Shown one piece after another: positions 11,187 through 61,574 of a stretch of 64,000 nt of DNA. The position numbers and the translations under genes are program-made. Position 1 is the stretch's first letter, and each line of letters opens with the position of its first letter. The stretch is from Nitrospira sp. ND1 (lineage in GTDB: Bacteria; Nitrospirota; Nitrospiria; Nitrospirales; Nitrospiraceae): assembly GCF_900170025.1 (NCBI RefSeq), contig NZ_FWEX01000006.1:3153839-3217838 (forward strand). The letters are read 5' to 3'. Below the pieces are notes generated by a model, which did not search any database, was not told the DNA's origin, and was given only the letters and a program-made list of their open reading frames with translations.

Positions 11187-13124
11187 ATGACGAACGGAGC
11201 AGAGATGTTCAAGGGGTCGCTCGCGGCAGCGGAAGCCGCCCGCGACACGCGTGCCTATTCAGGATTTATTGCAGGGTTATTCGAAGGAGTCGTTCGGAGA
11301 TCGCTGTTTACCTCTGCATCGATTCCGGCGATGAGCGGGGATGCGAAGGAATTTCTCGACACCCTCCGCCTGCTGCTGATCGAGAAGGTAGATCCGGAAG
11401 CCATCGATAGAGAAGGCGCGATCGGCGAAGAGGTGATCGAGGCGTTCAGAGCGATCGGCGCCTTCGGGATCAAAATCCCGCGCAGCTACGGCGGGTTGGG
11501 GCTTTCGCAGTCGGAGTATCACACAGTGGCGACCCTCCTCGGCAGTCATGACGCGGCGACCAGCGTGTTGCTGTCGGCCCACAATTCGATCGGAGTGGCG
11601 GAACCGGTCAAGCTGGTGGGAAATCGTGAGCAACAGCAGCGGTTGCTGCCTCGATTGGCACGGGGAGACATATCCGGATTTGCGCTGACGGAAAAGAGTG
11701 CGGGGTGTGATATCTGGGATCTCAAAACCTACGCGATTCCTGTTCATGAAGGCGGCGTCGTGGTGGGCTATCGGCTCACGGGTGAGAAGTTGTACACGAC
11801 GAACGCGCCTCGCGAGGATCACGAGTTCCTGGCCTCACTCCTTGTCGTCATTGCTCAGATCGTCACGGTGCCTCAGGACGTCGACCGTCCCAAGGAAGAG
11901 CGGCGATTCGGGGCGTTTGTCGTGGAGACGCAGTCTGCGGGGTGCCGCTGCACGCGTCTCAACTTTATGGGTGTTCGAGGCATCTATAATGGGCAGGTGC
12001 ATCTGCGCGATGTTTTTGTGCCGGTGGCCGACCGGCTCGGAGAGGAGGGCGAAGGTCTGCGGCGCGCTTTGGAGAGTCTCACGGTCGGACGATTGACACT
12101 GCCTGCCGCCTGCCTGGGCAGTCTGAAACAATGTCTCTGGTTGGCTCGGGCTCGCGCGCAGCAACGTATTCAGTACGACCGCCCGATCGGTGAGCATACG
12201 GATATCGGTTCCAAAATTGTTCTGATGGCTTCCCGCGTGCTCGCGCTCGAGGCCATCGTGAAGATCACGGGAATCTGGACCGATGCCAAGGTGGATGTAC
12301 GGCTGGAGTCGGCGGCGGCGAAAGTCCTCGCGACTGAGTGGCTGTTGGAGTCGTTGCTGGATCTGTTCCGCATCTACGGCGGGCGCGCGTTTGAGAGGCC
12401 CGATTCGTTGCGTCTCCATGGGGACTTGCCGGTGCCGATCGAACGGATGATCCGGGACGCGCTCATCAATGTGATCTGGGAAGGGAGCAACGGTATTCTG
12501 ACGTTGTGGATTGCGCGGGAAGGACTCGGCGAATATGTGACGCAAGGCAGGGCTTTTCTGGAACGCGGGATCGAGGACATGGCTCAGGCTGTGCCATTTT
12601 TCGCGAGAATCTCCGCGCGAGCCTTCAATCCGATTGCCTTTCTTGGGCGAGGTGTGCGATCGGGGGCTGATGCGGCTCCGTGGGAGCGGTTTGTGTTTGA
12701 AGAGAGTCGTGCGCTCGCGCGGAAATCCCTGTGGGCCAGTGTCCGTCACCGACAGGGGCTCGCGCGCAATCAACGCTTGTTGAGACGTCTGGTGACAGCC
12801 GGCCTGCAGCTATTTGCCGTGGAAGCCTTGTTGTGGTACGGATCACAGCCGGAAGTCCGGGAGCATGCCTTGTCGCGGGCGCTGGTTGAAGATTTCTGTC
12901 TGCGAGTCAAAGAAACATTTCATCCCACCCCGTTGCTCTCTCTGACGACGCCCTTGTGGGATGACGATCGGAGGTTGTTTCATCTGGCCAAAGACATACT
13001 TGCGGGCAAGGCCGGATGGTTGGAGGAGGGCATCATCCCGTCCTGCCCGGGCGGGCGAACCGGTGTTGCCGAACCGGCCGGTGTGGTGACGGGCGCTTCG
13101 GTGGAGACCTGGTCAGGGATTTGA
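11187..13124 (+). CDS. Acyl-CoA dehydrogenase (VLCAD/ACAD9-like, extended)
   Basis: A 645-residue flavoprotein, much longer than the usual 380-400 residues and close to the length of VLCAD-type enzymes with a C-terminal extension. The core has FGIKIPRSYGGLGLSQSE, FALTEKSAGCD, the QRIQYDRPIGEHTDI helix region and VIWEGSNGIL, where the Glu corresponds to the catalytic base of the family. It introduces the 2,3 double bond in acyl-CoA and reduces FAD. Roughly the last 200 residues form a helical extension. Start ATG 11187 has AGAGG upstream. Its electron acceptor (an ETF) is not encoded in the window. Confidence 0.9.
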   Translation: MTNGAEMFKGSLAAAEAARDTRAYSGFIAGLFEGVVRRSLFTSASIPAMSGDAKEFLDTLRLLLIEKVDPEAIDREGAIGEEVIEAFRAIGAFGIKIPRSYGGLGLSQSEYHTVATLLGSHDAATSVLLSAHNSIGVAEPVKLVGNREQQQRLLPRLARGDISGFALTEKSAGCDIWDLKTYAIPVHEGGVVVGYRLTGEKLYTTNAPREDHEFLASLLVVIAQIVTVPQDVDRPKEERRFGAFVVETQSAGCRCTRLNFMGVRGIYNGQVHLRDVFVPVADRLGEEGEGLRRALESLTVGRLTLPAACLGSLKQCLWLARARAQQRIQYDRPIGEHTDIGSKIVLMASRVLALEAIVKITGIWTDAKVDVRLESAAAKVLATEWLLESLLDLFRIYGGRAFERPDSLRLHGDLPVPIERMIRDALINVIWEGSNGILTLWIAREGLGEYVTQGRAFLERGIEDMAQAVPFFARISARAFNPIAFLGRGVRSGADAAPWERFVFEESRALARKSLWASVRHRQGLARNQRLLRRLVTAGLQLFAVEALLWYGSQPEVREHALSRALVEDFCLRVKETFHPTPLLSLTTPLWDDDRRLFHLAKDILAGKAGWLEEGIIPSCPGGRTGVAEPAGVVTGASVETWSGI

Positions 13125-13178
13125 GGCGGAGATGAGAGTGGTTGTTGCTTCCCAGTATTCATGTTCAACGGAGTCTCT

Positions 13179-14162
13179 ATGACGGAAATTTCCGGGTACT
13201 TCGAGGCGATTAAAGACCGCTACGCGTTGACCAGTGATTATACGCTGGCCGAAAAGCTTGGTATTGCACAACCGGATGCCAACTTGATGCGGCGCGGGCT
13301 CAAGGTTCCCAAACCAGAGCTCTGCATCAAAATCGCGAAGCTGCTCGACAGAAATCCGGTGGAACTTCTCCTGATCGCGCAAAAGGACAAGGCCCCGAAA
13401 CAGGCAAAAGAATACTGGACCCTGGCGCTGACGGCCGTGGATGTCATGTTGCATGTGCCGAAACGTCCCCGGTATCTCCCGAAGAAGGTCGAGGCAATCG
13501 GCAGGGAATTGAAACAGCTGGAGTCACAAACCCTGACCTATGAAGGCGCCGCCGCCAATGCCGAGGCGGTCCGTCTGATGGAGACGGCGGAGCAGTCCGT
13601 CGACGCGATGATGGAACGGTGGAACATTTGGAAGAAGGGGGAAGCCCTGTATCCCAACTATCTGTTGGCGAATCAGGCTGCCGCGCGGCGCCAGGTCAAA
13701 ATCAGACGCCTCCTGATCCTCACTCAGGCGCAGATGCAGGACAGCATGACGGTGTCCGATGCGGTGAATGTCATGGACGATCAGCAACGTGCCGGCGTCA
13801 AGGTATTCTATGCGTTTCGGGAAGCGCTGGTGCAGTCACCCACCTTTCAGCGGCTCGAAGAGGATTTCAGGATACACGGCGCTGCCGAAGACATGAATAC
13901 GGCGATGTTCGATCGGGAAATTTTGATCTTCTCGCAAACCTACGGCACGGTCCCGCTCGGCATGGTCGGCACGCCCACGCCCATCACCATGATCAATCGG
14001 CTTCAGATTTCATGGAAACCGGAGATGATCCGGGACCTGGATCCGGCCCCGCTGTTCGATATGACCCGCTATGTGTTCGAGTATGAGGGGGTCGGTTCAT
14101 TCCGGGAACAGCTGGCCCGGTTCACGCGGTCGATGCGGGAGCTTCCCCGCCGAGCCGTCTAG
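13179..14162 (+). CDS. XRE-family HTH protein with large uncharacterised C-terminal domain
   Basis: A 327-residue protein. The first 70 residues look like a Cro/C1 helix-turn-helix (SDYTLAEKLGIAQPDANLMRRG, a turn, then KPELCIKIAKLLDRNPVEL). Residues 85-190 are helical and charged. The last 130 residues include YGTVPLGMVGTPTPITMIN and a FDMTRYVFEYEG segment that I do not recognise. ATG 13179 is preferred because GGAG lies 6 nt upstream; ATG 13161 has none. It closes the fatty-acid operon 54 nt after the acyl-CoA dehydrogenase, so it may be the local regulator sensing an acyl compound. That role is inference from position. Confidence 0.65.
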   Translation: MTEISGYFEAIKDRYALTSDYTLAEKLGIAQPDANLMRRGLKVPKPELCIKIAKLLDRNPVELLLIAQKDKAPKQAKEYWTLALTAVDVMLHVPKRPRYLPKKVEAIGRELKQLESQTLTYEGAAANAEAVRLMETAEQSVDAMMERWNIWKKGEALYPNYLLANQAAARRQVKIRRLLILTQAQMQDSMTVSDAVNVMDDQQRAGVKVFYAFREALVQSPTFQRLEEDFRIHGAAEDMNTAMFDREILIFSQTYGTVPLGMVGTPTPITMINRLQISWKPEMIRDLDPAPLFDMTRYVFEYEGVGSFREQLARFTRSMRELPRRAV

Positions 14163-14309
14163 CAGGCTGCGGAACAACTCGATTGTCGTGCAATACGGTG
14201 TGATCAACTCGTGTGCCGTGTCGGTATCAGCATCATCCGCAGGATGCGCATAAAGGCCGTCCCCTCGTCCGTTGTTCGTGAAACGTCGTTCGTCTCTCGG
14301 CCTCAGAAA

Positions 14310-14399
14310 AGAGCGTATGGCATAGAGCGCATAGCCTATGGTCAGAAATCGGGAGTGGGCGTCCGTACTCTCAGCTATACGCCACCAGCCATACGCTCT
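14310..14399. repeat. Inverted repeat, REP-like
   Basis: A 12-bp arm (AGAGCGTATGGC, 14310-14321) recurs as its exact reverse complement (14388-14399). Next to it are further partly matching GCGCATAG / CTATACGC blocks. The arms could form a long cruciform or mRNA hairpin. No transposase is nearby. Confidence 0.6.
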
Positions 14400-14680
14400 G
14401 ACCCTGACGAGATACGCTTCACGATTCACGGGTGTCGCGCATCCTGCTAGAGTCACGCCCGCCGCATCCATCCGATATCACCCCACATGACCGACGGCCG
14501 TATCGTGCCGCAGGCCGAGCCATGCGCTCACCCATAGTGGGCTGCGGGCGTTCAGACCTGAAACGCAAGGTCTCTCCCGCCGGCCTTCTCTCCGCCGCCC
14601 CCTCACGAATCTCCCTTATGAGGATCGACTTCACCCGCACGAAAAAACTTTTCGAGGCAGGAGTATTTTAATTCGAGACA

Positions 14681-14689
14681 TGTTATAAG
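14681..14689 (+). promoter_or_regulatory. Candidate extended -10 promoter for the secretion cluster
   Basis: TGT followed by TATAAG forms an extended -10 element about 200 nt upstream of tpsB. No good -35 box is present at the expected distance, so this is weak. Confidence 0.35.
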
Positions 14690-14895
14690 CAGTTCCTTCG
14701 CAGGTAAGACTCTCCAAAGAGATACGTATCGCGCGGCTGTCTCATTGTCGCACAGGTACGGTTCTCCCGAGGAGAGGCACATGGGCGCAACAAGAGACAT
14801 CGCGCGGATGCAAGGGCAATGAGGGTGGTCTGGATTGTTGCGGGCAGGGGGACAGCCACGCTGTGCCCCGTCATCAAGAAAGAGGGGAGGCCTTG

Positions 14896-16713
14896 ATGGC
14901 TGGCGTGAAGAAGTCGGTGGGGCAGGAAGCAGGAATGACGACGTCGGCTGGTGCGGGTGGGGCTGTGTCGGGTGGCTCATCCCATCCTCGGAAGCACTGG
15001 CAATTGCTACGGCGATGGCGTCGCACATTTGCGAGTGTGACGGCTCTTCTATTGCTTGGCGCGCTGGCATTGCCGGCCTATTCGCAGACCGGCTCGCAAC
15101 TCGGTCCGTTGCCCCCGAAATTGCCCCAATTGCCTGTCGTCCCGCCTCCCGCGCAGCCTCCCGCTATTGAGGTGCCGGCACCCCGCCCCCCAAGTGCGCT
15201 CGATCAGGCGGCGAAGGGGCCCAAGATCATGGTCAAGGATATCCGGCTGGTCGGCAATACCGCCTTTACGTCGCAACGGCTTTCTGAAATCACCACTCCC
15301 TACACGAATCGAGAGTTGACGGCGGAAGATTTAGAATCGTTGCGCCTCGCCCTCACCTCTTATTACGTCAACCACGGCTATTTGACCTCCGGTGCGGTGG
15401 TGCCAGAGCAGGATGTCGCGGACGGCACCCTGACCATGCAGATCATCGAAGGAAAAATTACGCAGGTCAACGTCGAGGATACCAAGTGGTTCCGGCCCTC
15501 CTATTTTCAGAGCCGCGTCAATTTGGCGGCCGGCCCTCCGCTGCATGTGGAAGCGCTCCAGGAACGGTTGCGCGTGATCCAGGCCAACCCCCGCATCGAA
15601 CGGATCAATGCCGAATTGTTGCCGGGCGCCGCCATTGCAGAAAGTACGCTGAATATGAAAGTGAAGGAAGCCAACCCGCTCAAGGCCTGGTTGGAATTCA
15701 ACAACTATCAGTCTCCCGTGGTCGGCGCGGAGCAAGGCTTCGTGACGTTGGCGCATCAGAACCTGCTGGGCTTCGGCGATACGCTGAGTTTGCAATACGG
15801 GCGGTCGGCCGGGGTGAACCCGATGCTCAACTTTAAATACGAAATTCCGGTAGGCCCGCGTGACACCACCGTCGCGTTGCAATATCGCCGGTTCGATTTC
15901 GGGGTTGAGGAAGCGCCGTTCGATGCGTTGGATATCAAGAATAAGGCTCAGATTTTCGGGCTGTCGGTCAGACATCCCGTCATCCGGACGGCCGACCAGG
16001 AGCTGGCCTTTTCCCTCACGGGCGAACATGCCCGGAATGAAAGTACGTTGGGCGGGAATCCGTTCGAGCTCATCACCGGGTCGCCGAACGGGAAGTTCCG
16101 CGTGACCTCGCTCCGCTTCGGTCAGGAATATGCCCGGCGTTCTGCCGATCAGGTGATTTCTCTGTTATCACGTTTCTCCGTCGGTGTCGGAGCGATGGGG
16201 GCGACTGCCAATGGTGATCCGAATCTGCCGGATGCCCGTTTCTTCTCTTGGTTGGGCGAAGCCCAATGGATCCGCCAGCTCCCCTTGTGGCGGACGCAAT
16301 TGGTGAGTCGAGGCGTGGTGCAATTGTCCAACGACCACCTGTTCCCCCTCGAACAGATTGCGGTCGGTGGCCGGTACAGCGTGCGTGGCTATCGGGAGTT
16401 CACGTTGATTCGTGACAATGCCGCCATGTTGTCGATTGAGGCGCGGGTTCCGGTATATACGACGAAGGCCGGTGTGGATTCAGTCTTTCTCGCGCCCTTT
16501 TTCGATTTGGGGCATGGCTGGCAAACGACGGCCCAGACGCCCGGTACCCCCCCGAAAACATTGGCGAGTCTGGGTGCCGGCGTCATCTGGAATTTTTGGC
16601 GCGGGAGTCATTTCGAACTCTATTATGGAAAACAGTTGAAGCGGTACGATACCGACCGCAACAACCTGCAGGATCACGGCATCCATCTGCAGCTGGTGGT
16701 TGAGGCGTTCTAG
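14896..16713 (+). CDS. Two-partner secretion outer-membrane transporter (TpsB; ShlB/FhaC/HecB family)
   Basis: A 605-residue outer-membrane protein. A long basic N-region precedes a hydrophobic core near residues 47-62 ending at LPAYSQ, a signal peptide. A proline-rich linker comes next, then POTRA domains (KIMVKDIRLVGNTAFT..., and YYVNHGYLTSGAVVPEQ), then a beta-barrel rich in alternating strands. The barrel contains SVRGYREF, the VRGY motif conserved in TpsB and Omp85 proteins and needed for secretion. It would export the TpsA protein encoded downstream. The start is ATG 14896, 5 nt after GGGGAGG. Confidence 0.9.
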   Translation: MAGVKKSVGQEAGMTTSAGAGGAVSGGSSHPRKHWQLLRRWRRTFASVTALLLLGALALPAYSQTGSQLGPLPPKLPQLPVVPPPAQPPAIEVPAPRPPSALDQAAKGPKIMVKDIRLVGNTAFTSQRLSEITTPYTNRELTAEDLESLRLALTSYYVNHGYLTSGAVVPEQDVADGTLTMQIIEGKITQVNVEDTKWFRPSYFQSRVNLAAGPPLHVEALQERLRVIQANPRIERINAELLPGAAIAESTLNMKVKEANPLKAWLEFNNYQSPVVGAEQGFVTLAHQNLLGFGDTLSLQYGRSAGVNPMLNFKYEIPVGPRDTTVALQYRRFDFGVEEAPFDALDIKNKAQIFGLSVRHPVIRTADQELAFSLTGEHARNESTLGGNPFELITGSPNGKFRVTSLRFGQEYARRSADQVISLLSRFSVGVGAMGATANGDPNLPDARFFSWLGEAQWIRQLPLWRTQLVSRGVVQLSNDHLFPLEQIAVGGRYSVRGYREFTLIRDNAAMLSIEARVPVYTTKAGVDSVFLAPFFDLGHGWQTTAQTPGTPPKTLASLGAGVIWNFWRGSHFELYYGKQLKRYDTDRNNLQDHGIHLQLVVEAF

Positions 16714-16805
16714 GGGCGAATGGCCAGGGCCGATGGATGGTGTCCTACATGTGTCGTCTCACGGAGTAAGGGGTTATGCGTGTTGAAGTTGTGCACCGTT
16801 TAGGG

Positions 16806-16830
16806 TAAGAGAGGAGGCCTTCCTCTCTTA
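16806..16830 (+). promoter_or_regulatory. Hairpin between tpsB and tpsA
   Basis: A perfect 10-bp stem (16806-16815 with 16821-16830) and a 5-nt loop end 19 nt before the tpsA start codon, just ahead of its GAGGAG ribosome site. No T-run follows, so it is more likely a processing or stabilising element or attenuator than a full terminator. Confidence 0.55.
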
Positions 16831-16849
16831 TCACACGAGGAGAATTACC

Positions 16850-18127
16850 ATGACGTGTCGCCCCGCAGGTCTGCCGCTGTTCATTCATGGGTTGCTCGCC
16901 GTCCTGATGCTTCTGGGCCATACGGGGTCGATCGCCTACGGACAGGCCACGAACATCGTCGCGACCCCCTCCGGGCCTGGCGGTCTGGGTACATCTCTGA
17001 GCACTTCGGGCAATACCACGAACATTACCGGCGGAACCAGACCGGGAAGCGGTCCGAACCTCTTTCACAGCTTCAATCAATTCTCCGTCGGCACGGGGGA
17101 TGTGGCGGCATTCGTGAATCCCGGCGGCGTGTCCAATGTCATCAGTCGGGTGATCGGAGGATCGCCATCCAACATTAATGGTACGGTTCAGGCGCTCAAC
17201 GCGAACCTGTTCTTCATCAATCCTTCCGGGATCGTATTCGGCCCCAGCGCTTCACTGAACGTGTCCGGGTCCGCCTACTTCAGCACGGCTCAGCAATTGC
17301 GTCTGAGCGATGGCGGAATCTTCACGGCCAACACCGGACTCCTGGCCTTCGACTCGACCTTGTCGGTCGGTTCACCTGTTTCCTTCGGGTTTTTCGGCCA
17401 GGGCCCTTACGGTTCGATCGTCTTATCTTCTGCCTCGACAGTGCTCCAGACCGGGGCCGTACTCGGCTTGATGGGGGGCGGGATTCAGATCAACGGATCG
17501 AAAATCAGCGCGCAGCGAGTTATTCTAGGGAGTACGAGCTCGGCCGGCGAGATGAGTGTCCAGCCATTTGTCGGCAATCCTTTTTCCGGCGCGTCAGGAA
17601 ACGGACAGGTTCAAGCCCTTCCCGGGACTCTGATTGTTGCGGGTGGCGGAGGAGTGATTCCCGCCTCTATCGATGTGACTCCGAATGTGAGCGTGCCGAC
17701 AGGAGCGCAGGTCAACACGACGACGAATCCGTTGAATCAACGTGTGACGCAAATCCAGGTCGTGGGTGTGAATCTTGGCGGGCTTCCGCCTCTTCCTACA
17801 GCGAATGCGGCAAGTGTGAATACGGCTAATCCCGTCGAGCCTGTGGCGTTCTTGAATCGCGCAGCCATCGTACTTCCTCAGGAGGCTCCGGCCCCACCAG
17901 CCCCCTTATTGACCAGTCGGTGCGCGGCCCGAAAAGACGGTGCATTCAGCAGCCTTGTGCAAGCCTCGCGCGACGTTACGCCGTCGCAACCAGGTGCGTC
18001 TCTGGCGGCGCCTGTGGTGCTGGAGGAGGTCGGCAGCGAAGGCGAGCCGGGCACTCCGGCGACACAAACAGCACAGAGACTGGGTCAGTCGACGGCACAA
18101 CTTATGGAATCATGGCAGGGGTGCTAG
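16850..18127 (+). CDS. Filamentous-haemagglutinin N-terminal domain protein (short TpsA exoprotein)
   Basis: A 425-residue exported protein. The signal peptide ends near residue 31 (GSIAYGQA). The TPS domain that TpsB recognises follows, with SGNTTNITGG, NLFHSFNQFSV, and ANLFFINPSGIVFGPSASLNVSGSA, the NPxG-type motif of the family. TpsA proteins often exceed 1000 residues; this one has little beyond the TPS domain. The C-terminal part has a cysteine-containing SRCAARKDGAFSSLV segment, like the tail found in cyanobacterial TpsA proteins, and the protein ends in Trp-Gln-Gly-Cys. GAGGAG lies 7 nt before the ATG. It sits between tpsB and the CHAT gene. Confidence 0.85.
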   Translation: MTCRPAGLPLFIHGLLAVLMLLGHTGSIAYGQATNIVATPSGPGGLGTSLSTSGNTTNITGGTRPGSGPNLFHSFNQFSVGTGDVAAFVNPGGVSNVISRVIGGSPSNINGTVQALNANLFFINPSGIVFGPSASLNVSGSAYFSTAQQLRLSDGGIFTANTGLLAFDSTLSVGSPVSFGFFGQGPYGSIVLSSASTVLQTGAVLGLMGGGIQINGSKISAQRVILGSTSSAGEMSVQPFVGNPFSGASGNGQVQALPGTLIVAGGGGVIPASIDVTPNVSVPTGAQVNTTTNPLNQRVTQIQVVGVNLGGLPPLPTANAASVNTANPVEPVAFLNRAAIVLPQEAPAPPAPLLTSRCAARKDGAFSSLVQASRDVTPSQPGASLAAPVVLEEVGSEGEPGTPATQTAQRLGQSTAQLMESWQGC

Positions 18128-18146
18128 CTCCCCCAAGGAGGACGTC

Positions 18147-20621
18147 ATGCCTACGAAGCGTAACATGGTCACTCGGCGCGGCATGAAGCGGAGGCATGGA
18201 TCCGCTGGTCCCTCCGCCACGCGCGCGCTTTCCTCGCCGTTGACGATGCTGGGCGTCGGGGTGCTTGCGTTGAGCGGATTGGCCTGGCCTGTGAGCGGGA
18301 TCGCGATGGAATTATTTGGCGGTTCGGGTGCGTCGTCGATCTCGCCTTCGCAAGAAATGAGACAGGGGACGACACAGTTTCAGCAGGGTGCGTTTGCCCA
18401 GGCCGCCGCGCACTGGATGAATGCTGCGCGCGGGTATGAAGAGAGTGGACAGGCAAAAGAGCAGTGCCAGGCGTTGATCAACCTCGCGCACGCGCTTCAG
18501 CAGGAAGGACAGATCCGTCGCGCGCAAGGCACGTTGCAAGCCGCGCTCAAACTCTCGGAACAGAATGGTGAGCGTGGCCTCACGGCGACGATTCTCGCTC
18601 AGCTCGGCAACACCTTTCACGTGCTCGGGAAAGACGAACCCGCCACCGAACATTTGACCAGAGCCTTGACGTTGGCACGTGAGGAGAACAAGCCTCTGTT
18701 GGTTGCCGGGGTCCTGAACGATCTGGGTAATGCTCTGACGGCCCGTCGGCAGTTTGCCGAAGCGATCGACGTCTATGCGGAAAGCCGGAGCCTTGCCATT
18801 GAGACCAAGCAGCCGGCACTGGCGGCTACGGCCCAAATCAACGGCGCGATGGCCTTGCTCCAGAACCAACAACTGAGTGAAGCGCATCGTCATTTGGATC
18901 AAGCCTGGTCGGATGTGCGGTCGCTGGGGGATGGTCAGGCGAAGACTGCCGGTCTATTGAATATCGGGCTTGGATACCAGGAATTGTTCGCCGCCACGAC
19001 TGCGAAATCAGGCGTCGCCAGGAAATCGGATGCGGGGAAGGGCCGCGCGACGGAGGCGGTTGCTTCCGCCGGGCTGGGAGCCGGCCTGTTACGGCAATCG
19101 TCCGATGCCTTTATCGCGGCCGGTGAAGTGGCCGGACGCATCGGCGATGCGCGTGGACAATCGTACGCCTGGGGCTATTTGGGTGGATTGCTGGAGCAGG
19201 AGCATCGCAATCCCGAGGCGTTGGAGTATTCACGGAAGGCCACCTTCGCAGCTCAAAAGGTGAACGCGCCGGAATCGCTGTACCGTTGGCAATGGCAAAC
19301 GGCGAGGCTGTTGCGTGCGGACGGCAAAGAAGAAGAAGCACTGGCCGCGTATCAGCGTGCCGTGACGCTGCTGAAGCCGATTCACTACGAATATTCCGTG
19401 GGGTATCAGGGACGGCACCACTCGTACTACGAGTCTGTTGCGCCGCTGTTTGTGGAGTATGAAGATGTCTTGTTGCGGAGAGCGGCGGCGGCGAAGACGC
19501 CCGACCAGAATGAACAGTTGCTTGTTCAGGTGAAGGATACGGTTGAGGTCTCCCATGCGGCCGAGCTGCAGGATTATTTCCAGGACGATTGTGTGACGAC
19601 GGTCGCGAGTCATCGAGGCGTCGGCACGTTGGCGCCCGGCACCGCCGTGGTGTATCCGATTTCTTTCCCGGACCGGCTCGAACTGCTCCTGGAAACTGCC
19701 AATGGGCTTAAGCAGGTCAGGGTTCCTGTGGCGGGAGAGAGGCTGACGAAGGAAATTCGTTCGTTCAGGCGGCTGATCCAGGATTCCCAATCGCAGAACT
19801 ACCTGTCTTCCGCGCAGACGTTGCATGGGTGGCTGGTTGCGCCTCTTCAGCAGGATTTGCAGGGAGCCGGGATTCATACGCTCGTGATGGTGGCCGACGG
19901 GTCGCTCCGGACTATTCCAATGGGGGCCTTGCATGATGGGCGGCATTATCTCGTGGATTCGCTTGCCGTGGCCGTCACGCCGAGTCTGGCGTTGACCGAT
20001 CTGAGTGTTGCCCAGCGCCGAAAAGGCAGTCTGCTGTCGGTGGGCCTGACTGAATCGGTCGAGGGCCTGTCTGCTCCGCGGTACGCGGAGTCCGAAGTAC
20101 AAGCCATCAGAACGCTGTATGGCGGGAAGCTGCTGATGAACAAGCAGTTCTCTGCACCGTCTCTGGAGGAAGAGATCAAGGACCAGGGAGTGGGGATCGT
20201 TCATGTGGCGTCCCACACAGTCGTCGGCACCGAGGCCAGAGATTCGTTTGTGCTGGCTCATGACGGCAAGATCACGATGGACCGGTTGTCGCAGCTGGTG
20301 GGTCTTCAGCAATACCGGCAGCAGCCCTTGGATCTGTTGACGCTCAGCTCCTGCGAGATTGCTGCCGAGGACGATCGTGCGGCGCTCGGGTTGAGTGGTG
20401 TGGCCGTCAAGACAGGGGCGCGGACGGCTTTGGCGAGTTTGTGGACGTCGGATGATGAAACGACCACGGAACTCGTGTCGGAATTCTACAGGCAATTGCA
20501 GGATCCCGCGCTGTCAAAGGCCGTTGCGTTGCAACGGGCCCAGCAAAAGATTCTTTCCCAGCGCGGTCACACGCACCCCAGCTTCTGGGCGGCCTTCCTC
20601 TTGATCAACAATTGGATGTGA
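18147..20621 (+). CDS. Exported TPR-CHAT domain protein (putative caspase-like protease)
   Basis: An 824-residue protein. A basic N terminus and hydrophobic segment (about residues 30-52) form a signal peptide or anchor. Residues about 65-420 are tetratricopeptide-like helical repeats. The C-terminal CHAT domain has the His-Cys dyad: His690 in VHVASHTVVG and Cys736 in LTLSSCEIA, followed by LGLSGVAVKTGARTALASLW and the terminal FWAAFLLINNW. CHAT domains are caspase/separase-related peptidases. The start is ATG 18147 after AAGGAGG; the frame is open further upstream inside tpsA. Its place after tpsB-tpsA suggests it acts in the periplasm or at the surface, perhaps on TpsA. Substrate unknown. 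Confidence 0.87.
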   Translation: MPTKRNMVTRRGMKRRHGSAGPSATRALSSPLTMLGVGVLALSGLAWPVSGIAMELFGGSGASSISPSQEMRQGTTQFQQGAFAQAAAHWMNAARGYEESGQAKEQCQALINLAHALQQEGQIRRAQGTLQAALKLSEQNGERGLTATILAQLGNTFHVLGKDEPATEHLTRALTLAREENKPLLVAGVLNDLGNALTARRQFAEAIDVYAESRSLAIETKQPALAATAQINGAMALLQNQQLSEAHRHLDQAWSDVRSLGDGQAKTAGLLNIGLGYQELFAATTAKSGVARKSDAGKGRATEAVASAGLGAGLLRQSSDAFIAAGEVAGRIGDARGQSYAWGYLGGLLEQEHRNPEALEYSRKATFAAQKVNAPESLYRWQWQTARLLRADGKEEEALAAYQRAVTLLKPIHYEYSVGYQGRHHSYYESVAPLFVEYEDVLLRRAAAAKTPDQNEQLLVQVKDTVEVSHAAELQDYFQDDCVTTVASHRGVGTLAPGTAVVYPISFPDRLELLLETANGLKQVRVPVAGERLTKEIRSFRRLIQDSQSQNYLSSAQTLHGWLVAPLQQDLQGAGIHTLVMVADGSLRTIPMGALHDGRHYLVDSLAVAVTPSLALTDLSVAQRRKGSLLSVGLTESVEGLSAPRYAESEVQAIRTLYGGKLLMNKQFSAPSLEEEIKDQGVGIVHVASHTVVGTEARDSFVLAHDGKITMDRLSQLVGLQQYRQQPLDLLTLSSCEIAAEDDRAALGLSGVAVKTGARTALASLWTSDDETTTELVSEFYRQLQDPALSKAVALQRAQQKILSQRGHTHPSFWAAFLLINNWM

Positions 20622-20657
20622 TCGGGGCAGGATTCAAGGGCCTCTCGTCAAAACGAT

Positions 20658-20690
20658 AACAAGCCATCGATCCTGTATCGATGGCTTGTT
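20658..20690. terminator. Bidirectional terminator hairpin
   Basis: A perfect 14-bp stem (20658-20671 with 20677-20690) and a 5-nt loop stand between the convergent CHAT and Lon-like genes. The minus strand has a short T-tract after the stem (ATCGTTTTG); the plus strand has none. Confidence 0.8.
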
Positions 20691-20762
20691 CATTGGCGCG
20701 AATCAGGAGTGAGGAGAGCGCTGCCGGAGACGGCACACGGCCCTGGGGGAGAGGGGGAAAGG

Positions 20763-21446
20763 CTAGAGCTTTTTCCCGGTCATGATTTCGTAGGCTTCCT
20801 CGATCGTCCCCACTTCACGCACCAACACATTCGATTCGAGGTTCAGGCTGACTCGATTGACTCGCGGGGCATAAAACTGCCCTCGCGGCACCAGCAGTAC
20901 GTGGTAGCCAGCCCTCGCCGCCGCCGTCGTTTTTTCAGCCACCTGCGCGACTTGTCCGATCCGGCCATCGCCTTCCAGCGTACCGGTGATCGTAATGTCC
21001 TGTTTCAGGTGGTCACCTTTCAGCAGGGCGAGGAAACCGATGGCCAGGGCGGCTTCTGCGGTCGCTCCCTCCGCGTTCAATGGCCCGGAAAATGTCGCAT
21101 AGAGGGACAAGGTTCCGGTCGGACGGACGGATGGAGCCAGGCGTTCGACGGCAAAGCGAAAGGCCCGCTGAATGGAACTCATCCCGGTCCCTCTGACAGG
21201 AACATGACTCCGCCCCCACCGCAATGACAATGGATCCGGTTGGCTTCCTTCATCCCATTTCATCACAAATGTCGGGAAGCCGACTTGGTCGTCAGTGTAG
21301 GTGGCGATGGAGATGGGGACTGTGAGGGTTCGACTTGCAGAGGCAGCAGAGGGAAGCAATGAAAGCAGGGCAGTCAGGGAGAGGATGACTCCCGCAACCA
21401 TGCCTGAAAATGTGCCGCTTCTGGGACATGTTGTTCGCGCGCGCAT
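20763..21446 (-). CDS. Exported Lon-protease-domain-like protein (S16 fold) with Thr at the nucleophile position
   Basis: A 227-residue protein with an N-terminal signal peptide (hydrophobic residues 16-37, SAASAS) and a single domain resembling the Lon proteolytic domain. Recognisable parts are AEGATAEAALAIGFLALLKG, DITITGTLEGDGRIGQV and VAEKTTAAARAGY. The Lys of the S16 dyad is present (Lys172). At the serine position stands Thr129, 43 residues before the Lys, the same spacing as Ser679-Lys722 of E. coli Lon. There is no AAA+ domain. It may be a Thr/Lys peptidase or a non-catalytic relative. The promoter places transcription start at about the ATG, so the message is likely leaderless. Confidence 0.72.
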   Translation of the reverse strand: MRARTTCPRSGTFSGMVAGVILSLTALLSLLPSAASASRTLTVPISIATYTDDQVGFPTFVMKWDEGSQPDPLSLRWGRSHVPVRGTGMSSIQRAFRFAVERLAPSVRPTGTLSLYATFSGPLNAEGATAEAALAIGFLALLKGDHLKQDITITGTLEGDGRIGQVAQVAEKTTAAARAGYHVLLVPRGQFYAPRVNRVSLNLESNVLVREVGTIEEAYEIMTGKKL

Positions 21447-21452
21447 GAATTA

Positions 21453-21480
21453 AGTCTAGATGAGGATGCTCGATTGTCAA
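21453..21480 (-). promoter_or_regulatory. Strong sigma-70 promoter for the Lon-like gene, leaderless layout
   Basis: TTGACA (21480-21475), a 16-nt spacer and TAGACT (21458-21453) leave only 6 nt before the ATG at 21446. Transcription would begin at or next to the start codon, and no Shine-Dalgarno site exists. Confidence 0.7.
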
Positions 21481-21714
21481 ATCGACCCGGCGCCGTCATT
21501 GTGTGCAGTGAGAGCGTGCGGGAATGAGTGGGGTAAGTATCCGAAAACACTCATCTCTTTTTCTGAATTCTAGAATTACCTACTGAAATGCGTGAGGGGG
21601 CGGGTCATCCGGACCCATGATGCCTCTTGCCTCAGGCGCGTGATATTCTTGCGTCTTGCTCATCCGCTCGCCCGGGCATGTATGGCAGTCGGTGCTGCGT
21701 GGAGAACAGAACGT

Positions 21715-22578
21715 ATGGCCGTGCAGGGACCGATTGTGATCACCGGAGCGTCCTCCGGAATTGGTGCGGCGTGCGCGCGGTATCTCGATGCGTTGGGGTT
21801 CACTGTATGGGCGGGTGTCCGGAGCACGCAGGACGGGGAGGCGCTGACACGTCTGACCTCCTCACGACTTCGTGTGTTGATGCTGGACGTGACGGATCCG
21901 GCGTCGATCGAGGCGGCCCGCAAGACGTTGGCCGAGGCTACGCGTGACACGGGACTGGCGGGTCTCGTGAACAATGCCGGTATTTCCGTCGCCGGCCCCC
22001 TGGAACTCCTGCCTCTCTCAGAGGTGCGAACTCAGTTTGAAGTGAATGTGATCGGCGTCCTTGCGGTGACCCAAGCACTGCTCCCATTGCTGCGGCTGGT
22101 GCGCGGGCGGATCGTCAACATCAGTTCGATCGCCGGCCTTGCGGCCACGCCGTTTCTCGGCGCCTACTGCAGCTCGAAGTTTGCGTTGGAGGCGATGAGC
22201 GATGCGCTACGGCTCGAATTGGCGCCGTGGGGCATCTCGGTGTCGCTGGTCGAGCCTGGTGCGATCCAGTCGCAGATATGGCAACGGGCTACGATGTCGG
22301 CCACGCGCACCCTCGGCGGTGTCGAGCCGGAGGCACTCGCTCTGTATGCTCAGCCGTTGTCCCGGATGCAGGAGGTGATGGCCGCCGCCGCCGCGCGCGC
22401 GATTCCGGCCGAGGTGGTGGCACGGGTGGTGGCCGACGCATTGATCGCCGCGCGACCACGTGCGCGTTATCTGGTCGGCAAGGATGCGCGATTCAGAGCC
22501 ATGCTGAAATGGATCTTGCCCGATCGCGCTCAAGATCGCCTGTTGGCCTGGTTTCTAGGATTGCCCCACCGGGGCTAG
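21715..22578 (+). CDS. Short-chain dehydrogenase/reductase
   Basis: A 287-residue SDR with the NAD(P)-binding motif TGASSGIGAACARYL, the NNAG motif (LVNNAGISVAG), catalytic Ser in NISSIAG and the YxxxK motif YCSSKFALEAM. The VEPGAIQSQIW segment and the long C-terminal helical part resemble the retinol/17-beta-hydroxysteroid dehydrogenase branch. It reduces or oxidises an alcohol/ketone that cannot be named from sequence. The start is set at ATG 21715 because GGAG precedes it; the frame remains open to 21592 without homologous look. A Nudix gene follows 49 nt later. Confidence 0.85.
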   Translation: MAVQGPIVITGASSGIGAACARYLDALGFTVWAGVRSTQDGEALTRLTSSRLRVLMLDVTDPASIEAARKTLAEATRDTGLAGLVNNAGISVAGPLELLPLSEVRTQFEVNVIGVLAVTQALLPLLRLVRGRIVNISSIAGLAATPFLGAYCSSKFALEAMSDALRLELAPWGISVSLVEPGAIQSQIWQRATMSATRTLGGVEPEALALYAQPLSRMQEVMAAAAARAIPAEVVARVVADALIAARPRARYLVGKDARFRAMLKWILPDRAQDRLLAWFLGLPHRG

Positions 22579-59141: not shown

Positions 59142-61571
59142 TCAGGTCTGATTCGACAACGTTGGATCAAGCGCGGCGTTCACTGCCTTTATCAGCGAGT
59201 CGGGGGTATAGGGCTTGGGCAGAAATGTGGTCCGTGCATCAAGCTGTTCCAGCATCGATCCTTCGCGGTCTGAATAGCCGGAGGTGAGGATGATGTTGAT
59301 CTCCGGTTGCAGCGTCCGGAGTTCGGCGGCGAGTTGTATCCCCCCCATGCCGGGCATCACCATATCGGTTATCAAGAGTGAGATTCTCCCTCCCCGCTGG
59401 CGAACCAGCTGGAGCGCTTCCTCGCCGGTTCGCGCGGCCAGTACCGAATGATGCTGTCCGACCAGCACCGTCCGTGCCAGGCCTCGAACCATGTCATTGT
59501 CTTCGACGAGGAGAATAGTTTTCGACTGTTCAATGATGCTCCTGGGTTGAGCCACAGGGCGCGGCGATTCGGAATCCTCGTCGATGCACGGCAGATAAAT
59601 CGTAAATGTGGTGCCACGTCCGGGCTCGCTCTCAATCCCAACCGTCCCTCCGCTCTGCCGGACGATTCCATAGACCGTGGACAATCCGAGGCCGGTACCT
59701 TTGCCCAGCTCCTTCGTGGTGAAAAACGGCTCAAACACATGAGCGACCGTGTCGGCATCCATTCCGCATCCTGTATCCCGGACGGCGAGCGTGACGTACG
59801 GGCCCGGGGTGAGGGGATCAGGCCAGAGCGGATCGGAGTGAGTGATCGAGACCGATTTCGTCTCCAGGTCCAGGCGGCCTCCCTGCGGCATCGCATCGCG
59901 CGCGTTAACCACCAAATTCATCACGACCTGCTCGATTTGGCCGGGATCCGCCTTGATTCGTCCAAGTGCAGGATCCAAGGTGAGGGTGAGTTGAATGTCT
60001 TCCCCGATGACACGTTTCATGAGCTCGACAATGTCGGTCACGCGGTCATTCAGGTTGAGCGGTTGGCGTTCCACAATCTGGTGACGTGTGAAGGCCAACA
60101 ACTGCCGGGTGAGGGCAGTGGCTTTATTGCCGGCTTCCCTGATTTGTGCCATCCCGCGCTGGGTCCGCGTGGTTTGTCCCGGCTCATCCGTCAAGAGCTC
60201 AGCCCAGCTATTGATAATCGTCAAAAGATTGTTGAAGTCGTGTGCAATTCCTCCGGCCATGCGTCCCAGGGCTTCCATTTTTTGCGCCTGACGAAGCTGG
60301 CGCTCGAGATCCTTTCGGTGAAGAAATTGAGTAATCATGGCCCCCAACTCGGAAGCCCGTTCCAATCGAGATGAGCTGGGCCGCAGCCGTTCGTAGGTGA
60401 GAAACTCCATGATCCCCAGGATCTCTTTTCCCGTGTGAATGGGGAACGCGATCCCTCCGTGGAGGTCGGCTTTTTGCGCAGCGTGAAGGATCGGGCAGTC
60501 GGCCTCGTTGAGAATATCCGGGCAGAGAGTGGCATCCCCTGTCTTCCAGACCTGGCCCGCCAAACCGGCTCCCTGCCGCAGGGCAAGGCCCCGATAGATC
60601 CGGGCGAAGTTCTCGGCAGGGAGGCTTGGTTGGTGCCACAGGGCATTGCAGCGCAAGGTCTTGTCTTGTGAGTGTATCAGCCACAGTGCGCCCAGCGTCC
60701 AGCCTTGGAGTTCGCACATGGTGCGAAGAATTTTTGGTACCGCTTCACCGAGAGAGGCGGATTCCTCAAGGGCGAGGCCGACCGCGAGTTGAACGGCATG
60801 CATCGTTTCAGCTTGCCGTCGTTCGGTGATATCGGCCTTGGCGCCGATCATGCGGTAGGGGCGGCCCTCGTGGTCACGGAGCACATACCCGTGATCGATG
60901 ACATAGGCAAAGGTGCCGTCGGCTCGACGAAATCGATATTCGGCTGTCCACAGTTTCTGGTCGGACTGAAGCACTTGAGCGAGGTTGGTGAGAACCGCGG
61001 TCTGGTCCTCAGAATGAATCTGCTCGGCCCAGGGAATGTGGCCTCGCCGAAGCTTCTCAGGGGCGGAACCATATACCGATTGGTGCGCCTCGTTGAACCA
61101 CGTTACGCCGGAGGTGATCTCCCAGTCCCAGATGCCGTCGCGGGTGGCGAGGCAGGTCAGATGAAACCGCTCCTCGCTCTTCCGTAAGGCTTGCTCGACG
61201 CGGTGCCGGCCCATGGCATAGCGAATGGCGCGTCGGAGTGCGTCCCCCGTCAGCCGGCCCTTCACGAGATAGTCCTGCGCGCCATGCAGGAGGGATTTCT
61301 CAGCCACCACGTCGTTATCCAGCCCTGTCAACACGATGACCGGCGCGTCATGTGCTTGAGCCCGTACCCGATCGAGCGTCTCCAGGCCTTGGCTGTCCGG
61401 CAGCGAAAGATCGACCAGGACGGCATCCACCGGGCATTCCGCCAGTTTTTTTATGCCCGTTTGGAGTCTGTCCGCCCAGTTGAGCGTGACAGCGTCCGTC
61501 GACCGTTCGCAGAGCGCCTGTTGGATCAGCTCGGCATCATCTTCGTTGTCCTCGATGAGCAACACATGCAT
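59142..61571 (-). CDS. Hybrid sensor histidine kinase (REC-PAS-GAF-HisKA-HATPase-REC)
   Basis: An 809-residue cytoplasmic hybrid kinase. The N-terminal receiver has IEDNEDDAEL and Asp54 in VLVDLSLPD. A PAS domain (about 130-260, ending ADITERRQ) and a GAF domain (about 265-430) follow. The HisKA has GGIAHDFNNLL and the HATPase NLVVNARDAM, DTGCGMD and GTGLGLSTVYGIV. The C-terminal receiver has LLVEDND and DMVMPGMGG. It lies 3 nt after a single-domain receiver gene on the same strand and appears to belong to one phosphorelay with its upstream neighbours. Confidence 0.93.
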   Translation of the reverse strand: MHVLLIEDNEDDAELIQQALCERSTDAVTLNWADRLQTGIKKLAECPVDAVLVDLSLPDSQGLETLDRVRAQAHDAPVIVLTGLDNDVVAEKSLLHGAQDYLVKGRLTGDALRRAIRYAMGRHRVEQALRKSEERFHLTCLATRDGIWDWEITSGVTWFNEAHQSVYGSAPEKLRRGHIPWAEQIHSEDQTAVLTNLAQVLQSDQKLWTAEYRFRRADGTFAYVIDHGYVLRDHEGRPYRMIGAKADITERRQAETMHAVQLAVGLALEESASLGEAVPKILRTMCELQGWTLGALWLIHSQDKTLRCNALWHQPSLPAENFARIYRGLALRQGAGLAGQVWKTGDATLCPDILNEADCPILHAAQKADLHGGIAFPIHTGKEILGIMEFLTYERLRPSSSRLERASELGAMITQFLHRKDLERQLRQAQKMEALGRMAGGIAHDFNNLLTIINSWAELLTDEPGQTTRTQRGMAQIREAGNKATALTRQLLAFTRHQIVERQPLNLNDRVTDIVELMKRVIGEDIQLTLTLDPALGRIKADPGQIEQVVMNLVVNARDAMPQGGRLDLETKSVSITHSDPLWPDPLTPGPYVTLAVRDTGCGMDADTVAHVFEPFFTTKELGKGTGLGLSTVYGIVRQSGGTVGIESEPGRGTTFTIYLPCIDEDSESPRPVAQPRSIIEQSKTILLVEDNDMVRGLARTVLVGQHHSVLAARTGEEALQLVRQRGGRISLLITDMVMPGMGGIQLAAELRTLQPEINIILTSGYSDREGSMLEQLDARTTFLPKPYTPDSLIKAVNAALDPTLSNQT

Positions 61572-61574
61572 GTG

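Follow-up and report, generated by a model that had tools for sequence, protein, structure and literature searches.

A TpsA exoprotein with a conserved C-terminal tail, its TpsB transporter, and a very probably exported TPR-CHAT protein are associated in Nitrospira and well beyond it, and the tail follows the CHAT protein across genomes. The instance described here is a trio of genes, tpsB, tpsA, and a TPR-CHAT gene, which lie in that order on the + strand of the window, by which we mean the whole 64,000-nucleotide stretch of DNA that was analyzed, part of a 4.45-Mb Nitrospira genome. This trio is a reduced form of the system. The closest named relatives at the locus are Nitrospira sp. and Candidatus Nitrospira defluvii (95–96% identity for the CHAT protein). 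CHAT proteins are mostly known from inside cells, in CRISPR, cell-death, and developmental settings, and in the literature that we searched, which covered few subscription journals, we recognized no description of CHAT joined with two-partner secretion. A sequence-only reading of the window had seen in the trio an exported caspase-like enzyme beside its possible substrate, at work in surface processing or in a contact-dependent system; we confirmed what it had observed, and its interpretation is partly supported.

The trio and its features in the window

All coordinates in this section are on the + strand unless stated otherwise. The tpsB gene (14896–16713) encodes an outer-membrane transporter of the ShlB/FhaC type (605 aa), in which a POTRA domain (PF08479, E = 1.7e-23) and a ShlB-type barrel domain (PF03865, E = 5.9e-33) identify a type Vb system; the sequence contains no cysteine. 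After a gap of 136 nt follows tpsA (16850–18127), which encodes a short two-partner exoprotein of 425 aa (PF05860, 119 bits). Its N-terminal TPS secretion domain (residues 47–236; 16988–17557; E = 3.9e-34) is the sole Pfam match in the protein and, with the gene lying beside tpsB, likewise marks it as type Vb. The tail core (residues 350–392; 17897–18025; E = 1.5e-19 for the core profile in its own genome) holds Cys358 (codon 17921–17923), SSLV, Arg374-Asp375, and PG, and is followed by a variable spacer (18026–18121; median Ka/Ks of 0.43 for residues 393–418) and by Cys425, the last residue (codon 18122–18124). These are the only two cysteines of the mature TpsA, and both belong to the tail.

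The tpsA stop and the ATG of the CHAT gene are 19 nt apart, with an AAGGAGG ribosome-binding site for the latter at 18135–18141. The CHAT gene (18147–20621) encodes a protein of 824 aa, predicted to be exported, which consists of a TPR superhelix (residues 64–445; 18336–19481; from Pfam and the predicted model) and a CHAT domain (residues 555–820; 19809–20606; PF12770, E = 5.3e-50, 171 bits). It has three cysteines, C107, C482, and C736. Cys482 (codon 19590–19592) lies between the TPR and CHAT parts, and the putative catalytic residues are His690 (codon 20214–20216) and Cys736 (codon 20352–20354), each present in 40 of 41 alignment rows. Pfam and the sequence thus bore out the three genes and their lengths, and the His690/Cys736 dyad is intact, as had been claimed. 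Past the CHAT gene, a terminator-like stem of 14 pairs (20658–20690; a consensus match only) is reported on the − strand; it is nearly palindromic and could serve both strands. Three promoter-like sites were found (again consensus matches only), none of them between the trio genes. An Rfam search of 13000–22000 gave no matches, and PADLOC returned only a weak TPR match.

Conservation of the trio in Nitrospira and relatives

We searched 100 relatives for PF05860, PF12770, and PF03865 and joined the matches by position; 101 rows were kept, with some further pieces of split ShlB hits excluded. TPS frames shorter than 300 aa were left out, as were 7 of 128 TPS frames truncated at contig ends. The order ShlB, short TPS (a frame of ~440 aa), CHAT (a frame of ~830 aa) was found in 27 of 29 Nitrospira genomes. 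The CHAT frame adjoining the TPS is broken in one of these, G020; in G010 the trio genes are split over two small contigs, and G028 is a genome of 66% completeness. Wherever the sequence read extends to them, the flanks of the orthologous locus are the same genus-wide, with HTH and acyl-CoA dehydrogenase genes on one side and Lon-like, SDR, NUDIX, and PAS kinase genes on the other; the trio was therefore inherited at one site. The suggestion that the three genes form one unit was therefore upheld, the contrary outcome, a trio without conservation, having failed to appear.

A second arrangement, with one to three long TpsAs (~1000–1250 aa), ShlB, and a CHAT of ~780 aa, occurs in many genomes that also hold the short trio and in related genera. 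In the proposed survey of co-occurrence, made over the 100 relatives, TPS and ShlB both lay within 12 kb of 62 of 78 CHAT frames of 700–949 aa, and of only 1 of 43 CHAT frames of at least 1100 aa, among the matches listed, in which weak CHAT matches are absent. The association of mid-length CHAT with TPS and ShlB is therefore not due to chance.

The TpsA tail

The C-termini of the 121 complete TPS frames in the 100-relative set were read, and tails were counted by a regular expression in a wide form that covers variants. Most of the 121 end in a tail of one form (C-A/V-A, a glycine, SSF/L-V, often GRD, P, PG, and L.SP), in which the last cysteine stands 0–10 residues from the C-terminus. This second cysteine was aligned at the end in all 95 non-redundant tail seeds, which had been chosen by the first part of the tail. 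No Pfam family covers the core, C..SSF..GRD..P..PG. A profile of the core only (26 rows) matched 111 places in 50 of the 100 genomes, nearly all inside TPS frames. Among the 27 short TpsAs, the tail core had the lowest Ka/Ks of the protein (median 0.043), below that of the TPS domain (residues 33–240; median 0.057).

Exactly two cysteines follow residue 45 in 66 of 98 tail-bearing TpsAs. In three Desulfobacterota loci (L211, L214, and L220) TpsA stops directly behind the core, with a single tail cysteine; as the second cysteine is absent there, a disulphide cannot be a general feature of these tails. The arginine of the tail, a natural cut-site candidate, is present in 81 of 95 seeds and is replaced in some Nitrospirales and in many Nostoc TpsAs. 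We considered a cut after this arginine, with D742 of the CHAT protein as an acidic S1 residue, and do not claim it, given that the arginine is absent from whole subfamilies and that D742 is invariant even in CHAT proteins that have lost the dyad. A structure model of TpsA was too poor for use (pLDDT 49.5, with the tail unfolded).

Co-occurrence of the tail and the CHAT protein

The tail and a mid-length CHAT were present or absent together in 95 of the 100 genomes: both occur in 47 and neither in 48, whereas 3 have just the tail and 2 just the CHAT (Fisher 4.9e-22, with relatedness ignored). Of 36 genera, 12 have both, 20 neither, 2 the tail alone, and 2 the CHAT alone (Fisher 5.6e-6). The five genomes that disagree include G010, whose trio-type CHAT sits on a broken contig; G046, whose CHAT belongs to a different class (127 bits vs. 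>1000); and G036 and G072, with completeness of 70% and 73%. This leaves G040, a complete genome, as the only firm exception. Among 20 complete tail-less TpsAs of at least 300 aa, 18 had no such CHAT within 12 kb; in the other two the gene is broken, and a frame with the tail lies downstream. Within the same genomes, exoproteins that have a TpsB and lack a CHAT are mostly tail-less, including one of 2164 aa in the genome of the window. Conversely, 19 of 98 tail-bearing TpsAs had no CHAT within 12 kb, some at contig ends and some with the genes apart.

Several loci of other composition were recorded along the way. The exception G040 has an orphan tail-bearing TpsA (L108), for which the family and profile searches found neither a TpsB nor a trio-type CHAT. 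The 2164-aa exoprotein belongs to a second two-partner pair of its genome (L036, C6:1780000-1798000) and has a different conserved C-terminus (PSFNVASAIPWY...); similar exoprotein ends occur in G022, G029, and G059, with CHAT absent nearby. A third class of TpsA, of ~1460 aa with a VKRGVVIQVDVKP-like end, is accompanied by TpsB and by no CHAT (L104, L111, L118, and L120).

Probable export, predicted fold, and dyad of the CHAT protein

The CHAT protein of the window begins with a hydrophobic stretch, and a plain hydropathy rule assigns one to 63 of the 67 trio-type CHATs, so the protein is very probably exported, in keeping with the signal sequence claimed for it. Such an N-terminus did not serve as a mark of the trio alone, since two of the four non-trio controls recovered (19 control loci given) also have one. 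The TPR-CHAT model, built from 41 sequences, has a pLDDT of 81.9. Its best structural match is the TPR-CHAT protein Csx29 of the type III-E CRISPR system Craspase (Z 29.6 over 562 residues, 6.2 Å, 10% identity), and the predicted model also resembles separase (ctSPD; Z 22.2 over 310 residues, 3.6 Å). The CHAT domain, the His/Cys dyad, and the TPR-CHAT/separase fold of the predicted model all place the protein among the clan CD CHAT proteins.

The dyad is intact in 62 of the 67 trio-type CHATs (23 of 27 in short trios, 39 of 40 others). His690 or Cys736 has been lost in 4 of the 27 short-trio proteins (L068, L044, L063, and L046, in G024, G003, G021, and G005, respectively), and both are lost in 1 of the 40 others, the second CHAT of G042 (L073). 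The tree requires no fewer than four independent events to account for these five losses. The four dyad-less short-trio proteins are nevertheless as conserved as intact copies (Ka/Ks 0.04–0.075). C482 and D742 are kept in all 41 alignment rows and in all 67 trio-type CHATs, the five dyad-less ones included, and the aligned part has just two cysteines in 23 of the 41. Ka/Ks is as low in the TPR part (0.068) as in the CHAT part (0.070), and is 0.49 at the N-terminus. That the dyad can be lost while the protein stays conserved means that cleavage is not always needed. Every genome with a dyad-less CHAT holds another trio-type CHAT, so activity could also come in trans. CHAT activity thus seems to matter, and a non-catalytic role must exist too. 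As to the earlier idea that CHAT may process TpsA, a natural fusion (described below) ties the two proteins together; cleavage as the whole function is weakened by the independent losses in 4 of 27 conserved proteins.

Beyond Nitrospirota, and fuller forms of the system

The association recurs in other Nitrospirota, Desulfobacterota, Rokubacteria, Acidobacteria, Scalindua, and Cyanobacteria. A scan with the CHAT alignment gave 80 named loci from Nitrospira, Rokubacteria, Scalindua, Acidobacteria, Desulfobacterota, and Methylococcaceae. Among the 42 loci of at least 20 kb, picked by CHAT alone, TPS and ShlB were both present in 38, and TPS, ShlB, or the tail in 40; the remaining two (L170 and L188) have CHASE2 and DUF928 instead. 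Over all 80 loci, short contigs included, TPS and ShlB were both present in 48 and at least one of TPS, ShlB, and the tail in 66. The tail profile matched 56 of the 58 complete TPS frames of at least 300 aa in these loci, a count that is not independent, because the genomes from which the profile was built overlap the loci tested; one of the two misses is a broken gene, and the other (L214) has a degenerate tail. An apparent TpsB-CHAT fusion in L220 was rejected as a scaffold-gap artefact, in which an NN separates the two genes. As a single outgroup control, a Variovorax exoprotein had neither a tail match nor an adjoining CHAT.

In Cyanobacteria, 12 loci of TpsAs with a two-cysteine tail were sampled stepwise down the 60 best of 84 records. 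Nine of them hold such a CHAT, and three have none in the stretch read. The last two cysteines stand 94–124 and 2–20 residues from the C-terminus in 19 of 19 cyanobacterial TpsAs, with a core between them that varies. The comparison made earlier with cyanobacterial TpsAs, whose tails share this form and which also lie beside CHAT genes, therefore held. Plasmid pREC3 of Acaryochloris marina carries a single CDS of 1756 aa in which a TPS domain (177 bits), repeats, the tail core, TPRs, and CHAT (202 bits) follow one another, the tail core standing between TPS and CHAT.

Fuller forms include further partners. Near CHAT in the 80 loci, DUF928 was found in 35 and a CHASE2 protein in 17, and all four non-cyanobacterial CHASE2 proteins tested have a cyclase domain. 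In several of ten cyanobacterial plasmid loci, the trio genes occur with DUF928, CHASE2, and DUF1822. Neither CHASE2 nor DUF928 was found beside the trio of the window. A weak phmmer match to CHASE2 at 59145–61574 of the window was rejected, as Pfam identifies a hybrid histidine kinase there. DUF928 is present in 40 of the 100 relatives, and the genome of the window has only a 130-aa piece (C6:1389921-1390259), also seen in G022, which is probably a remnant of a lost long TpsA-TpsB-CHAT-DUF928 system; this agrees with a history in which the long system was lost and the short one survived. The DUF928 and CHASE2 cyclase of the fuller forms suggest that the state of the tail is sensed and reported inward. 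A different neighbour set was seen in Nostoc-type plasmids (L247-L249 and L251-L255), where TpsA and CHAT occur with a hypothetical gene and a Ser/Thr kinase or TPR protein, often also with NB-ARC.

Comparison with known systems

We know of no CHAT partner in the HMW1/HxuA systems, which otherwise resemble the trio in having a TPS-domain TpsA, a TpsB partner, and a C-terminal cysteine pair (C358 and C425 in the window), the likeness being drawn by cysteine pattern; a further difference is the tail core of the window, which is absent from Pfam. According to the excerpts of PMC5422565 available, a C-terminal disulphide in HMW1/HxuA makes a globular loop that locks the end of TpsA in the TpsB pore on the periplasmic side, and the C-terminal part of HxuA that was not resolved comprises 66 residues, against a Cys-to-Cys distance of 67 in the window. 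Because disulphide-containing TpsA tails stay in the periplasm in these systems, we revised the site of action from the surface, as first proposed, to the periplasm, which by this analogy is the likely one.

Other parallels are partial. In the FHA/FhaC system of Bordetella, proteases degrade a C-terminal prodomain that is retained in the periplasm, and a periplasmic C-terminal part of TpsA worked on by proteases is what we propose for the window; there the proteases are general, whereas the window encodes a dedicated clan CD protein. Csx29 shares the TPR and CHAT architecture and the dyad but differs in that the CHAT protein of the window is predicted to be exported and sits beside TpsA and TpsB, and neither Cas7-11 nor Csx30 was among the genes identified around the trio. 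Separase, similar in its protease fold to the predicted model, is eukaryotic and intracellular and has cohesin as its substrate. PorU of type IX secretion is a clan CD protease that acts on the C-terminal tail of exported proteins; its likeness to the CHAT of the window is an analogy only. HetF of Anabaena is a CHAT protein with a role in cell division and heterocysts, and differs in that no TPS partner is mentioned in the excerpts of PMC8406250 available.

Proposed mechanism and alternatives

From the observed conservation, association, tail, cysteine pattern, natural fusion, and predicted CHAT fold, we infer a type Vb system with an exported TPR-CHAT protein as its dedicated partner, which binds a disulphide-closed periplasmic anchor tail and in most cases cuts it, a reading to which we give about an even chance. 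TpsB would export TpsA through the outer membrane, and a Cys358-Cys425 disulphide would close the small C-terminal tail, which would stay in the periplasm and hold the exoprotein in its transporter, as in HMW1/HxuA. The CHAT partner, itself exported to the periplasm, would bind the tail through its TPR superhelix, and in most lineages its separase/caspase-like CHAT domain would cut the tail, so that the exoprotein is released or matured; where the dyad has been lost, the protein may still serve as a tail-binding partner. A periplasmic partner that binds the tail, and as a rule cuts it, is the simplest account because a protein predicted to be exported is tied to the tail by co-occurrence, by neighbourhood, and by fusion.

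An alternative that we doubt, yet take seriously, is that the exported TPR-CHAT protein acts in the periplasm chiefly as a chaperone or adaptor without catalysis, guiding the tail to TpsB or holding it there, with protease activity secondary; C482 might then be linked to a tail cysteine by a mixed disulphide. The repeated loss of the dyad in a protein that remains constrained speaks for it, as do the persistence of C482 and D742 in dyad-less proteins, the low Ka/Ks of the TPR part, the presence of just two cysteines in so many aligned CHATs, and the single cysteine of the Desulfobacterota tails. It has to contend, however, with a dyad that is intact in nearly all trio-type CHATs, and with short-trio losses that all fall where a further trio-type CHAT, not listed as damaged, exists: 4 of 17 genomes with a further CHAT show a loss, against 0 of 10 without, although these numbers are too few to decide. 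We think it quite unlikely that the system is built for transmembrane signalling, in which an outside event on TpsA leads CHAT to cut the tail and a CHASE2 cyclase senses the product, the trio of the window being a stripped remnant with another sensor. The CHASE2 and DUF928 genes beside CHAT in several phyla and Cyanobacteria, the Ser/Thr kinase that replaces CHASE2 in several Nostoc-type plasmids, and the retained DUF928 piece all fit such a role, but the trio of the window has neither gene adjoining it, and CHASE2 is missing next to CHAT in most long systems of Nitrospira, although these do have DUF928.

Contact-dependent inhibition, or a polymorphic toxin with CHAT as its processing peptidase, comes to mind since the former uses two-partner secretion and caspase-like peptidases process polymorphic toxins (PMC3482391, in the excerpts available). 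We consider it highly unlikely. TpsA matches TPS alone and has no toxin domain, its C-terminus is conserved rather than polymorphic, and 3′ of tpsA lies the 824-aa CHAT gene and not a small immunity gene; the contact-dependent system suggested earlier is therefore unsupported. That the neighbourhood has no function and is an old synteny block kept by descent is barely credible: a block of patatin, acyl-CoA dehydrogenase, HTH, trio, Lon-like, SDR, and NUDIX genes is indeed fixed in the genus, but the association recurs in other gene orders, in other phyla, and as a fusion.

If the periplasmic binding-and-cutting reading is true, the CHAT family gains a role in the cell envelope and a concrete predicted substrate, and two-partner secretion gains a third partner in nitrifiers, cyanobacteria, and others; the prediction comes down to one tail, one protease, and two cysteines. 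A more sweeping version, speculative and rather improbable as a whole, would make this a widespread type Vb subclass, in which the C-terminal sorting tail is usually closed by cysteines and an exported separase-like protease, dedicated to it, is the switch for release and maturation, an outer-membrane counterpart of sortase or PorU systems. Its full form, with DUF928 and a CHASE2 cyclase or kinase, would be coupled to inward signalling, and in the lineage of the window the protease would be turning repeatedly into a non-catalytic tail receptor.

A minor observation concerns the gene that lies directly 3′ of the trio, in convergent orientation, and is kept there genus-wide. Its product, 227 aa long, is Lon-C-like and begins with a hydrophobic stretch (20763–21446 of the window, − strand; PF05362, E = 5.6e-7); it has ATAE at the position of PSAG, which we take to be the usual Lon serine motif.
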